Below are positions 5,837 through 10,881 of a stretch of 21,527 nucleotides of DNA, piece by piece. Position numbers and translations under genes: made by a program. The stretch is from a virus, in IMG/VR virus record IMGVR_UViG_3300037264_009539, positions 1 to 21,527 of that record. One strand, 5' to 3'. Numbering within the stretch: the first letter of the stretch is position 1; every line of letters starts with the position of its first letter. Under the pieces are notes generated by a model. It saw nothing but the letters and a program-made list of their open reading frames with translations, did no database searches and was not told the origin of the DNA.

Positions 5837-7846
5837 TTACACCTTCTGCCAGTCGCGGGAAATGGCGGGGTCAGCCTCGAGCATCACGTGCCCGGCCGGC
5901 CCCTCGATCTTGTGCGTCATCTTCTCTTTGATGATCTGTGCGATCGTCTCGGCATCCGCCTCGTCGCACTCAGCAACGATCTGATCATGGACATTGAGGA
6001 TCACATGTGCTGTTGGAAATCGCTCTCTGAGGATCTCGTCGATCGCTAGTAAAGACAGGTTCTGAAAATCTCCTGCCGCGAACTGAATCGGGTTGTTCGA
6101 GGTCTTCGTGATCTCGACGGGCACCACGGGGTGAAATCGCTTTCGGCCCAACGGAATGATGTCCTGGTAGCCGAGCTTGTTCGCCCGGTCCCATTCGCGT
6201 TCGCACCACTCCCCGATCTCAGGGTAGTGCCTGTCGAAGTTCCGGGCGATCATGGCGATGAAGGCCGGCGTCAACGTACTTCGGACCGCCGCCGGCGTGT
6301 CCGGGTCGTTGCGTAGGTTTTCGCAGATCGTCTCTGGCGACGCGCGGTAGTTCCTCGCGTACACGACGCGCTTCGCGATGTCGCGAAGGTTTTTCCAAGC
6401 TGGTGACTTGGGCACGAGATTCGTGAAACTTGGCCCGAAGACTTCTGCACAAACCTCGTTGTGGACATCACGTGTTGGGTCGGCGAAGATTTCGATGAGC
6501 TTCCGGCACCCTGACAAAGCCACGATGACCCGGTACTCGATTGCCTTCGAGTCCGCGCCGACCAGCGTCCGCCCCGGCTTCGTCATACAGATCGCACGGA
6601 GCGGGTGGGGCCAGTTCTGCAAGTTTGGATTTTCCGACGACCACCGGGAGCCGACAGTGCCGTAGCTTTTCCATCGGATGTGCAATCGTCCGTTGTCGTC
6701 TACGAGGTCGGGAAGCTTTGAAACAAACGTCGCGAGCCGCTTGGCTGTCTCGTCGAACTTCACGAGCGCCCGGACCGCGTCGATGTCGAGATGCTCGACC
6801 ATCGCCGCAACGCCCGTGGCAGGCTCACCACGTTTCTCGGTGTAATGTCGCACCGGCAGCTTCAACCGTTCGTAGAGCAGCTCTTTGCGGTGGGCAGGCT
6901 TGCGGGGTTCGAACTCGGGCCACTTCAGCTGGCTCCGGATGAAATACAACGCACTGTCGCGCTTGGTTCGTAGCTTCTCGGCGATGGCAATTCGCCGTTC
7001 CTCGTTGATTGGGATACCGACTCGGCCCATTCGTCCGGCAAGTTCCATCAGCCGAGTTTCGAGCTCCGCGATGTGGGTTTGGCCTCGCTCCACAATTCGG
7101 TCCATCAGGATCGGCGTCAGCTTCTGCGTCGCGAGCGTATCCTTCGCGTTGTAGTGCAGGAGCCGGTCGAGCGTCCCGAGTCCGGCCCGTTCAACTGATC
7201 GGTACTCTACCTTCCAGGGTTCGATGTCGAGGAACTGCTGACTGACGAAACCTAAGTCGTGATCGATCTCGGGATCGGTCACGTGATGGTTGACGAGGTT
7301 GTCGTAGATGGGGCCCGCTACACCAAGGCCATGGCGCAATAGGACCTCGACGTCGTAGCTCGCGTTGAAGAAGATTTTTGGAATGTCCGGCGCTTGCATG
7401 ACCGCGCGACAGGCGGCGAACAGCCGCTGGGTCTGTTCGTGGCCGATCGAACCGTCGGCAATGAAAGCAAGCGCCTCGTCCGACGGGTAGAAAGAAATGC
7501 CGAGCGCGTGCAGCTTACAAGTGTACTGATCAAGTGCGTCTCGCTTCCCAACCCCGTAGCATTCCGTGTCTACCGCCGCGGCCCGTTTCATCCGGAAGTT
7601 CTCGTCGAGCCAGTTAACGGCCTGGTCGACGGAGAAGTTGCCGCCGCCGTTCGGGAGAATCTTGTAGAGCGTTCCAGTTGGTGCCCAGCCGTCACGCGCG
7701 ATTCGCACCGCGCGCTGCATGTCCGCCACGACGACTTCGTGGTAGTGCTGCGCTCCGCGAAGTAGGAAGGCAGGGTGATAGGTCGGGATAAAATACGCCT
7801 TCGTACTGAAGGCTTCCGGATCGAACGCGAGAGCGGGTTGGCTCAT
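5837..7846 (-). CDS. polA: Family A DNA polymerase (PolA-like) with 3'-5' exonuclease and an N-terminal UDG-tail segment
   Basis: The phage replicative polymerase. From ATG 7846 it has 669 aa. Residues 15-50 are not polymerase: TYHPAFLLR (22-30) followed by VVVADMQRAVRIA is the C-terminal signature of family-4 uracil-DNA glycosylase. The 3'-5' exonuclease has DTE (93-95), NASYD (161-165) and YNAKD (232-236). Polymerase motif A is ADSKAIEYR (D432, E437), motif B runs R488-xxx-K492-xxx-Y496-xxx-Y500, and motif C is VHDQ (619-622; HDE in bacterial Pol I). There is no 5'-3' exonuclease domain. The same frame stays open upstream to 8122, but those 92 Arg-rich residues are a shadow of the UDG gene. 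ATG 7846 overlaps the UDG stop by ATGA. Confidence 0.93.
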   Translation of the reverse strand: MSQPALAFDPEAFSTKAYFIPTYHPAFLLRGAQHYHEVVVADMQRAVRIARDGWAPTGTLYKILPNGGGNFSVDQAVNWLDENFRMKRAAAVDTECYGVGKRDALDQYTCKLHALGISFYPSDEALAFIADGSIGHEQTQRLFAACRAVMQAPDIPKIFFNASYDVEVLLRHGLGVAGPIYDNLVNHHVTDPEIDHDLGFVSQQFLDIEPWKVEYRSVERAGLGTLDRLLHYNAKDTLATQKLTPILMDRIVERGQTHIAELETRLMELAGRMGRVGIPINEERRIAIAEKLRTKRDSALYFIRSQLKWPEFEPRKPAHRKELLYERLKLPVRHYTEKRGEPATGVAAMVEHLDIDAVRALVKFDETAKRLATFVSKLPDLVDDNGRLHIRWKSYGTVGSRWSSENPNLQNWPHPLRAICMTKPGRTLVGADSKAIEYRVIVALSGCRKLIEIFADPTRDVHNEVCAEVFGPSFTNLVPKSPAWKNLRDIAKRVVYARNYRASPETICENLRNDPDTPAAVRSTLTPAFIAMIARNFDRHYPEIGEWCEREWDRANKLGYQDIIPLGRKRFHPVVPVEITKTSNNPIQFAAGDFQNLSLLAIDEILRERFPTAHVILNVHDQIVAECDEADAETIAQIIKEKMTHKIEGPAGHVMLEADPAISRDWQKV

Positions 7847-8367
7847 GTCGGTTGCGTTCCTGAACTCGGCGTCCCGGCCCCGGCCAGATCGATCACGTGA
7901 ACGGCGCCGCGCCGGCCCTTCATCGAAGCTTTGGAATCGTAGACGGATCTGATCGCCTGGCCTCCAAGCCCGATGATCACGATGGGGCGCACGATTCGCA
8001 GCTCGGCCTGCAAACGAGACCGGCAATGCTCTGCGGCGATCTTGACTACCTTTTCTGGATTCAACCGGACGCCGTTCACAGTGGCCGACTTCGGTTTGCA
8101 CAGGGCGCTGTTCGTGATCCAAACCTCATGGCGGCTTATGCCGGCCTGCTCGAGAAAGACGTTGAGCAGCTTTCCAGACAACCCTACGAACGGGCGACCA
8201 TCTTGCGCTTCACGACCGCCCGGCGCTTCACCCACGAGCGCGATCCGTGCGCGCGGATTTCCTTCGGGCGGTACGATCCGTTCACCCTGCAAGGGGCAGT
8301 GCGTGCAGTCCGGCTGTGCGAGCAGCCCGCTCACGAACTGATGTACTGCCCCGCTCTCATCGTCCAT
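7843..8367 (-). CDS. Family-4 (SPO1-related, Fe-S) uracil-DNA glycosylase, lacking its C-terminal motif
   Basis: Removes uracil from DNA. Family-4 features: four cluster cysteines in the family arrangement (C21-x2-C24, C90, C115), the active-site motif GEAPGGREAQDGRPFVG (46-62), and ITNSALCKPK (84-93). The protein ends at 174 aa after GRRGAVHVIDLAG, before the conserved 'TyHPa.lLR' segment; that segment is in the first 30 residues of the polymerase encoded next. SPO1 DNA polymerase is known to carry a UDG domain of this family at its N terminus, so this pair looks like a split version of that fusion. ATG 8367 has no clear Shine-Dalgarno. The gene is separated from the SSB-like gene by a strong hairpin. 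Confidence 0.9.
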   Translation of the reverse strand: MDDESGAVHQFVSGLLAQPDCTHCPLQGERIVPPEGNPRARIALVGEAPGGREAQDGRPFVGLSGKLLNVFLEQAGISRHEVWITNSALCKPKSATVNGVRLNPEKVVKIAAEHCRSRLQAELRIVRPIVIIGLGGQAIRSVYDSKASMKGRRGAVHVIDLAGAGTPSSGTQPT

Positions 8368-8409
8368 CCGGCACGACCCATCTGCTGGCTCTGCGAACTG
8401 AAACCGTTA

Positions 8410-8439
8410 CCCCACCCCGAGCAGAGTCTCGGGATGGGG
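8410..8439 (-). terminator. 12-bp hairpin between the SSB-like and UDG genes (attenuator or partial terminator)
   Basis: CCCCACCCCGAG (8410-8421) and CTCGGGATGGGG (8428-8439) pair around a 6-nt loop. In minus-strand RNA the one non-Watson-Crick position is a G-U pair, giving an unbroken 12-bp stem, whereas in plus-strand RNA it is a C-A mismatch. This suggests it works in the minus-strand transcript. The downstream sequence is TAACGGTTT, not a real U-run, so full termination is doubtful. Confidence 0.5.
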
Positions 8440-8459
8440 TCTGTCAACAGACGGTCGGG

Positions 8460-9065
8460 CTACTTGGCGCCGACCGGCTTGGCAGGCGGGGCCGCGGGCG
8501 AAGGCCCACCGAATCCCGGTGCGGTCCCGGGAGCACCGGGCCAGCCCACATTCGGGTTCCAGCCTTGGCCCTGTTGACCACCGTTCGGCGGGGCGGCGAA
8601 CCCGGCCTGCGGCGGTGGGGCGAAGCCAGTCGGCGGTGGCGCTGCGTACCCACCGGCTGTCGGGGGGCCACCTTGCGTCGCCGGCTGTTCGTTGCCGACC
8701 CGGTTGTAGTTCTTGCCCTGGTACATCTCGTTCGAGATGGTGGCCCGGATGACGCGCCCGAGGAACTGCGAGTCATCGAAGTCCGCCATTTGTTCCTTGG
8801 GCACCCCGCAAGCCGCGATCAGCTTGGCGATCCGGAACCCCGCCTTCTGTTGCAGCGAGTAGGAGCTGAAGAGCTTCTTCCCCGCGTACTCGGGCGAGCC
8901 GTTCGGGCCGTCGAGCAGCTCGAAGTTCACCGTCAGTTTCAGTTCCCCGGAAGCCTTCGCGACTTCCTGTCGAACGTCGATGATCCGCAAGGTGTACTCG
9001 CCCGGCGGATATGGATCGAAGCCCTTGTCCTCGATTTTGCTGAAGTCCAGAGGTATGCGTGCCAT
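8460..9065 (-). CDS. ssDNA-binding-like protein (DUF669-like) with Gly/Pro-rich tail
   Basis: Residues 1-125 look like a compact beta-rich domain: PPGEYTLRIIDVRQE, LKLTVNFELLDGP, GKKLFSSYSLQ and GRVIRATISNE. This resembles DUF669-type phage proteins that occur with recombinases and are thought to bind single-stranded DNA. Residues 126-201 are low-complexity Gly/Pro/Ala/Gln, as in the flexible tails of SSBs, although the usual acidic tip is missing (it ends KPVGAK). ATG 9065 is supported by GGAGAG (9071-9076) 5 nt upstream; an upstream in-frame start at 9119 has less support. It lies directly downstream of the Sak4-like ATPase and nuclease, consistent with a recombination/replication role. Function is inferred. 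Confidence 0.7.
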   Translation of the reverse strand: MARIPLDFSKIEDKGFDPYPPGEYTLRIIDVRQEVAKASGELKLTVNFELLDGPNGSPEYAGKKLFSSYSLQQKAGFRIAKLIAACGVPKEQMADFDDSQFLGRVIRATISNEMYQGKNYNRVGNEQPATQGGPPTAGGYAAPPPTGFAPPPQAGFAAPPNGGQQGQGWNPNVGWPGAPGTAPGFGGPSPAAPPAKPVGAK

Positions 9066-9154
9066 GGTCTCTCTCCGTTGTCTTTCTGTCAGTTCGCCTA
9101 CCCGATCACCGAGAAGCACGATGCGATCCCGGTCGGGGAGGTTTTTTCTCTAAG

Positions 9155-9883
9155 CTAAGGTTTTGTGGGAACGGGTTCGCCGATATAGGGGCCAATCCGT
9201 TCTGCGATGGCACCGAAGTGCGAAACAATCAGGCCATCGGCAAAGGCGTTTCCGAACCGGCCCCCAGCGGGAGCGCCATCGATCGGAATGGTTCGGAGAA
9301 AGAATTGCGCGGCGTACTGACCGTTGGGGGCTCGTGAAGTCTGTACGTGCGAACGCACGATCAGGTCACACGCGCCTGGCAACTTGGAACTCGTCTTGCC
9401 GTAGAGCATCGGCCGGTACCCGATGACCTTGCCCTCGTCCCCCTTGTCGGGTTCCTCGTTGGCGATCCAGACGACGTGCATAGGTAAGGCACGCAATGTG
9501 GGCAGCAACCACTTCTGCAGGTGGGAGTCGAGCATGCCCCAGTCGCGTTGGTTCATGGGCTTCTCACCGTTGTTGGTGAGCTCCTGAATCACCTGATCCG
9601 CGTAGTAGGTGACGGAATCGACGACCACGGTGCGCCAGCCGCGGGTGGCTGCGTTCGCCCGGACGAAGGCGACGGCCTCTTTCATCTCCTTCAAGTTTCC
9701 AATCTGGATCACGTCGACGTCGAAGAAGCGGAGCGACGTGTCGCCACCTTCCGTGCCTGACGAAAGAAAGATCGGTTTTGGAAAAGTTGCGGCTAACGAA
9801 GTCTTGCCGGAACGGAGCGGACCGTACACGAAAGTATGGAGCGGCCGAGGGGCCATCTGATTGGATTTTTGTACGACGGTCAC
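9155..9883 (-). CDS. Sak4/RecA-like recombination ATPase (AAA_24-type P-loop protein)
   Basis: A single-domain P-loop ATPase of 242 aa. Walker A is GPLRSGKTS (21-29) and Walker B is TVVVDSVT (85-92). LPMHVVWIANEE (133-144) is the strand that normally carries the sensor residue. This domain order and size match phage single-strand annealing/RecA-like Sak4 proteins, which work with an SSB in recombination. The start is GTG 9883: it overlaps the previous stop as GTGA and has GGGAGG 6 nt upstream. Upstream codons to 10009 are shadow of the nuclease gene. Flanked by the PD-(D/E)XK nuclease and the SSB-like gene. Confidence 0.8.
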   Translation of the reverse strand: MTVVQKSNQMAPRPLHTFVYGPLRSGKTSLAATFPKPIFLSSGTEGGDTSLRFFDVDVIQIGNLKEMKEAVAFVRANAATRGWRTVVVDSVTYYADQVIQELTNNGEKPMNQRDWGMLDSHLQKWLLPTLRALPMHVVWIANEEPDKGDEGKVIGYRPMLYGKTSSKLPGACDLIVRSHVQTSRAPNGQYAAQFFLRTIPIDGAPAGGRFGNAFADGLIVSHFGAIAERIGPYIGEPVPTKP

Positions 9884-10881
9884 GGAGTGCCTCCCTGCTT
9901 TGTAGGGGGTTTCTTCCACGAAGAAATTTCGTAGAGGTTTTCCTGCGCGCCATGCGACGAGCAGAAGTCGAAATACTTGCAGAGGCCGTACCCACGGGGG
10001 CTTTTGCATACGCCAAAGTTCATGGGCCAGCTCTCGATATCTTGGGCTAGGGGTCCTTTCGCATTGAGGTCAATCTCGACGACAGCCGGAGTGATTTGCG
10101 CGATGAACCGGTCGACGTCGGCGTCGCTGATCGCGATATCAACCCGACGGCACTCAGGTTGTTTCGTCTTCGTGATGACGTTGATGATGAAACCGTTGAG
10201 CTTACCGAGAATCGCGTCGAGGCCTTGCTGGCGCCAGAGGTACGCCATCAACAAGAACTGGCCGTCCATCTTGTACCCCTCGGTGAGATCGTAGGACATC
10301 TTCGCCATGCACTTGTGGTCGACGATGTAGACGCCGTCGGGGCAAGGGCCGTAGGGATCGGGAGGCGCACCAGCAGCCTTCTTGCGGATCACCAAGTCGA
10401 AACGACATGAGAGCTGTGCCGTGTGTTCCTTTTTCTTCTTCGGCAGCTTGGCCGAGACCGTGCCGATGACCTCGCGCTCGACGGCACGAATGTCCCAATG
10501 CTGTGCCTCTTCTTGCTGGTAGATTGCAAAGTAGGCTTGGAGTAACCGGGCAACTTCCTGCGCAACATCAGGAATCTCATTCGCTACAGCGAACAGTGGC
10601 TCGTAGGTCTTCTGCCCGCCGGTCAGGTAGTGTGCGGCCATGCACGCGTGAAAAAGCGTGCCAATATCGAGTGCCGGCGACTGCCTCTTCGGTCGCATCT
10701 TCTTGATGGACTCGAGGTAGTACATGCGACGGCAGATGGCGTAGGTCGAGATCTTCGACCAGCCACGGACGCTGGGCCCGCCGAGGTACTCCTGGCCGCC
10801 GAGCTTGGCGTCGAGGATGTCCGCTACGTGCGGCTTGACGGTGTCCAGATCTTGCGCGAGTGCTTGTGGTAGTTTAGCCAT
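9880..10881 (-). CDS. PD-(D/E)XK nuclease (RecB/Cas4/AddB-like exonuclease)
   Basis: Likely a phage exonuclease for recombination. From ATG 10881 (333 aa): SKISTYAICRRMYYLESI (42-59) is the usual N-terminal helix with Cys50; GTLFHACMAAHY (74-85) carries the conserved His78; RFDLV (160-164) gives D162; VDHK (187-190) is the D-x-K catalytic motif; and GQFLLMAYLW (207-216) is the Q-x5-Y motif. Cysteines 292, 301 and 307 (GVCKSPRGYGLCKYFDFC), with Cys50, could bind a [4Fe-4S] cluster as in AddB/Cas4, although the spacing C-x8-C-x5-C is not the canonical one. The start overlaps the helicase stop by 8 nt, with AAGGAG upstream. An upstream TTG/GTG start to 10968 is a helicase shadow. Confidence 0.88.
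   Translation of the reverse strand: MAKLPQALAQDLDTVKPHVADILDAKLGGQEYLGGPSVRGWSKISTYAICRRMYYLESIKKMRPKRQSPALDIGTLFHACMAAHYLTGGQKTYEPLFAVANEIPDVAQEVARLLQAYFAIYQQEEAQHWDIRAVEREVIGTVSAKLPKKKKEHTAQLSCRFDLVIRKKAAGAPPDPYGPCPDGVYIVDHKCMAKMSYDLTEGYKMDGQFLLMAYLWRQQGLDAILGKLNGFIINVITKTKQPECRRVDIAISDADVDRFIAQITPAVVEIDLNAKGPLAQDIESWPMNFGVCKSPRGYGLCKYFDFCSSHGAQENLYEISSWKKPPTKQGGTP
9890..9895 (-). promoter_or_regulatory. Ribosome binding site deciding the Sak4-like GTG start
   Basis: GGGAGG on the minus strand, 6 nt before GTG 9883, lying inside the 3' end of the nuclease gene. It favours the GTG over the in-frame ATG further downstream. Confidence 0.7.

Follow-up and report, generated by a model that had tools for sequence, protein, structure and literature searches.

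Fusions of a uracil-DNA glycosylase (UDG) to a family-A DNA polymerase are already known in phages, as in gp205 of PaBG (PMC7412058) and in the phiLo polymerase, for which a structure exists (9qhs), and phage enzymes divided between two genes, such as Aeh1 NrdA, phage 25 gp43A/B and T4 gp39/60, are known as well (PMC2988022). In the family-4 enzyme Tth UDGa, the histidine of motif B is the most important residue, its replacement in H155S lowering k2/Km from 2.4e5 to 9.4e1 (PMC5387724). The IMG/VR virus record IMGVR_UViG_3300037264_009539, whose 21,527 bases were analysed as a whole and are called the window below, does not have the single open reading frame (ORF) for UDG and polymerase that is seen in SPO1-type fusions. 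It has two ORFs instead, whose homologues are successive parts of a single chain, and these probably specify a naturally split family-4-like UDG that is rebuilt on the N-terminus of the polymerase, with presumptive assembly in trans, catalysis and coupling to the replisome.

Both genes lie on the minus strand. The upstream gene (7843..8367; ATG at 8367, TGA at 7845-7843) encodes an N-terminal UDG half of 174 residues, and the downstream gene (5837..7846; ATG at 7846-7844, stop at 5837) a family-A polymerase of 669 residues with exonuclease and polymerase parts. The polymerase start sits on the UDG stop in an ATGA overlap (7843..7846), which places the polymerase in the -1 frame relative to the UDG. 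The UDG half carries motif A, GEAPG, at residues 46-50 (8218..8232), all of the iron-sulfur (Fe-S) cysteines (C21, C24, C90 and C115) and the uracil-pocket residues E47, A48, E53, F60 and N86 (residue roles per PMC5387724), and its N98 aligns across a three-residue gap with N89 of Tth, the motif 3 asparagine, a residue not present in all relatives. It lacks motif B, the last strand and the helix. The Pfam UDG profile matches residues 33-145 and is covered only to position 101 of 141, while TIGR00758 gives 93.1 bits, under its cut-off of 125.3, over positions 1-131 of 173; a PHROGs search with this half returned no match. Judged by its sequence, the UDG half alone cannot be a complete family-4 enzyme, and it should be nearly inactive, because Tth H155S loses most of its k2/Km. 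An identity as UdgX was considered and rejected, motif A being GEAPG rather than GEQPG and the sequence having no KRRIH R-loop (motifs per PMC10359453).

The missing piece is found at the beginning of the polymerase: the C-terminal part of the UDG fold forms the N-terminus of this product, which there reads KAYFIPTYHPAFLLRGAQHYHEVVVADMQRAVRIA. Residues 16-50 (7697..7801, minus strand) comprise the last UDG strand (KAYFIPT), HPAFLLR and the C-terminal helix, the strand and helix being read off an AF2 model of a relative, L008. Motif B, TYHPAFLLR, occupies polymerase residues 22-30 (7757..7783, minus strand), and the HPxxxxR pattern, from the presumed catalytic His24 to R30, occurs only on this second chain. 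When the two products were placed end to end and searched against solved structures, T. maritima UDG was matched in two collinear pieces, the second of which is the polymerase segment, with order and spacing correct; the same holds in the profile version of the search. The two matching parts are only ~7 residues apart in single-chain TM0511, so that the break falls in a short loop that precedes the final core strand. Against the phage DNA polymerase family phrog_17, the polymerase aligns from its residue 18 and profile position 606, a point ahead of the exonuclease part, and the TYHPAFLLR-bearing segment is conserved in every split homologue. The T. maritima alignment, the phrog_17 match and this conservation together make TYHPAFLLR more than a chance occurrence. 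A first-pass annotation of this DNA had the UDG frame ending before motif B, TYHPAFLLR at 7783-7757 in the polymerase frame and the two frames overlapping at ATGA, all of which stands; neither the dipeptide HP nor, with it, the complete His-Pro motif that the annotation had named as contrary evidence was found anywhere in the window UDG product, and the alignment it proposed, of the UDG frame plus polymerase N-terminus with family-4 UDG, is collinear with the T. maritima enzyme.

Here, too, the annotation's suggestion of a search for UDG genes ending at the same point before a polymerase proved fruitful, as many homologues share the break. Both halves are held by ten further viral contigs (L002, L011, L041/L042, L038, L008, L036, L015, L025 and L039), and L033/L034 form a second, independent split pair; in L012, the UDG half is present and the contig ends ahead of the polymerase. 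These relatives were found by pattern scans from small alignments, single-sequence queries recovering few or none. The last scan, using clade B (L033/L034), yielded no further relatives, a scan of genome contigs yielded none, and isolate phages gave distant matches only. Searched from the polymerase side, the UDG half was upstream in all eight of the contigs found. L002, an independent contig of 94.8 kb with identities to the window of 61% (UDG half) and 60% (polymerase), has the junction GTGA, with the polymerase frame closed 10 nucleotides (nt) upstream of the overlap. The junction is TGATG in L041 and L042, identical in sequence in the two records, and TAGTG in L038, and 30 nt separate the halves in L011. 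Genes stand between the halves in L008 (an ORF of 86 aa), L036 (87 aa) and L039 (121 aa), and likewise in L015 (0.8 kb) and L025 (3.5 kb). In L025, the intervening DNA encodes, at 6609-9326, a protein of 905 aa in which Pfam recognises shoulder and repeat domains of the major vault protein (1.4e-15). The contigs show the break to be an old property of a whole clade that does not depend on the ATGA overlap; coupled translation would be favoured by the overlap in the adjacent cases and not required, because inserted genes are tolerated. No homing endonuclease was found at the split in the window, the ten intervening ORFs that were scanned contain no Pfam nuclease, an Rfam scan of ten loci gave no RNA family, group I/II introns included, and no second UDG was found in the L002 and L008 records (95 and 111 kb).

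Several further features of these loci deserve mention. In the window, the UDG half is neighboured by genes for a DUF669 protein (8460..9119) and an AAA_24 ATPase (9155..10009), both on the minus strand and in the same order in L002. L002 and L007 (IMGVR_UViG_3300031576_000013) carry intein-like insertions in four adjacent replication genes, those for PDDEXK, AAA_24, the UDG half and the polymerase; the one in the UDG half is of 355 aa and lies immediately ahead of the third Fe-S cysteine (NSAL/C, the slash marking the insertion). An insertion of ~970 nt within the polymerase gene of L038 is probably another intein. In Caulobacter phage Kuura (L048), a UDG match lies in an ORF of 370 aa, and ~0.6 kb further on a second ORF encodes the polymerase; this gene type may have been split there in a different way.

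The polymerase tree, built without the UDG part and unrooted, places ten split sequences on one branch (100/100) and the split pair L033/L034 as sister to the fused L031 (100/100), with fused relatives spread across it, and two changes between fused and split are needed. Changes on an unrooted tree, for which no root was inferred, cannot separate fission from fusion; on this tree, the break arose at least twice. The fused L031 and L030 have insertions of ~100 and ~55 residues, respectively, exactly at the cut-point loop. A repeated KEKRRKLL tract is seen in fused L031 and L018 in the loop where relatives are split. The proposal that an ancestral UDG-polymerase fusion was cut within the glycosylase domain is supported by the tree and by the expanded loop of the fused relatives, and the simplest series would run from loop expansion through fission to gene insertion.

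A model of the joined halves is available for L008, in which the two share a frame and the intervening DNA was read with TGA as W to serve as an artificial linker, a modelling device and not a natural protein. The single-chain AF2 model (pTM 0.71) leaves the linker, residues 224-272, disordered and forms the polymerase segment as a confident strand (277-280) and helix (297-312); in Foldseek, its matches to solved UDGs over ~290 columns reach TMt 0.65-0.74. In the model of the window UDG half by itself, the end at the break is disordered, and TMt to solved UDGs is mostly 0.46-0.60.

On the most likely mechanism, an ancestral SPO1-type fusion would have been divided in the surface loop that links the RG-containing segment to the final core strand. 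Most of the UDG fold, including motif A and the Fe-S cluster, would then come from the upstream gene, and the polymerase from the downstream one; the first ~50 polymerase residues would add the final strand, the motif B that bears the catalytic histidine, and the helix that closes the fold. Docking of the UDG half on the polymerase N-terminus would restore fold and active site, and uracil recognition or excision would thereby be present only on the polymerase. For the stronger statement, we consider the chances evenly balanced: that this is an obligate two-protein glycosylase with an active site completed only on the replicative polymerase, the UDG half being a detachable subunit and base recognition or excision taking place exclusively at the replisome, an arrangement that arose at least twice and persisted through deep divergence despite inserted genes.

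Some observations weigh against a split glycosylase rebuilt on the polymerase. All split examples are metagenome contigs, with no isolate among them. The read-through linker and the four fused relatives in the AF2 alignment mean that docking is partly built into the L008 model; this model gives large rmsd values in Foldseek, and the control with the UDG half by itself comes from a different sequence (the window) than the joined model. Motif A reads GEEPG, not GE[AG]PG, in L008, L036, L015, L025, L038 and L039, which may alter catalysis or specificity.

The main rival, which we regard as unlikely, is that the halves assemble in trans as a non-catalytic module, which might sense uracil or modified bases or serve the polymerase in docking or processivity. 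Some fused relatives have indeed lost the motif A glutamate (GMNPG, GLFPG, GQDPG), and poxvirus D4 exemplifies a UDG that can serve as a polymerase processivity subunit (PMC10253040). On the other hand, all the catalytic residues checked are retained in the window and throughout its split clade: C21/C24/C90/C115, GE.PG, E53, F60, N86 and R-G in all clade-A UDG halves checked, and an invariant P, HPA and R30 in the split polymerase segments checked. These same residues speak against a second rival, that the UDG half is degenerating and the polymerase segment is only a leader left behind. The incompleteness of the UDG half as a family-4 enzyme, with its score below the TIGR00758 cut-off, fits this account, which is nonetheless very improbable: mean pairwise identity over 45 pairs is 48% in the UDG half, 47% in the polymerase HP segment and 45% in the rest of the polymerase, and a UDG half that diverges no faster than the polymerase gives no sign of decay. 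Programmed -1 frameshifting to a fused product is more doubtful still. The polymerase is in the -1 frame in five of five adjacent cases, and L042 has one canonical heptamer, TTTCCCT; none occurs in L002, L011 or L038, nor anywhere in the window UDG frame, in whose last 20 codons the first-pass annotation had likewise seen no X-XXY-YYZ site. No frameshift signal is common to the loci, and frameshifting is impossible where genes intervene. That one gene was interrupted by an indel from sequencing or assembly has next to no likelihood, even with assembled contigs rather than reads as evidence, given independent contigs with different junctions, the identical junction in the L041 and L042 records, the 10 nt overlap in L002 that leaves no room for an indel or slip, and whole genes between the halves of L008, L036, L039, L015 and L025, all of which bears out the annotation's preference for a real start and stop.

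If the split glycosylase is real, the role of the UDG domain in SPO1-type phage polymerases becomes directly testable, as the domain could be supplied, withheld or mutated apart from the polymerase. The pair would, moreover, be a naturally divided enzyme one half of which is part of another enzyme, forcing the coupling of base recognition to replication, and would offer engineers a split glycosylase ready for use.

The open-access literature searched yielded no account of a DNA glycosylase divided across its active site with half on a polymerase; fusions and split phage enzymes each being known, the part that would be new is that cut and the half carried by the polymerase. With family-4 UDGs (Tth UDGa, 1ui0; TM0511, 1vk2), the window system shares the Fe-S cysteines, GEAPG, the F54 and N80 equivalents and HPA..LR, but motif B, the last strand and the helix sit on its polymerase. 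Poxvirus D4 with the A20/E9 polymerase is likewise a UDG forming part of a polymerase holoenzyme, but D4 has a complete family-1 fold and is connected through A20, with no fold fragment in common. The genes-in-pieces enzymes (Aeh1 NrdA, phage 25 gp43A/B, T4 gp39/60) also place one enzyme in two genes, and their products reassemble, whereas in the window system no homing endonuclease is recognised and the C-terminal fragment is part of a second enzyme, whereby the split ties two activities together. The SPO1-type polymerases with an N-terminal UDG (phiLo, PDB 9qhs; PaBG gp205; Rctr197k; phrog_17) have the same order of UDG, exonuclease and polymerase, but in one chain, whereas in the window the UDG fold is cut across two gene products.
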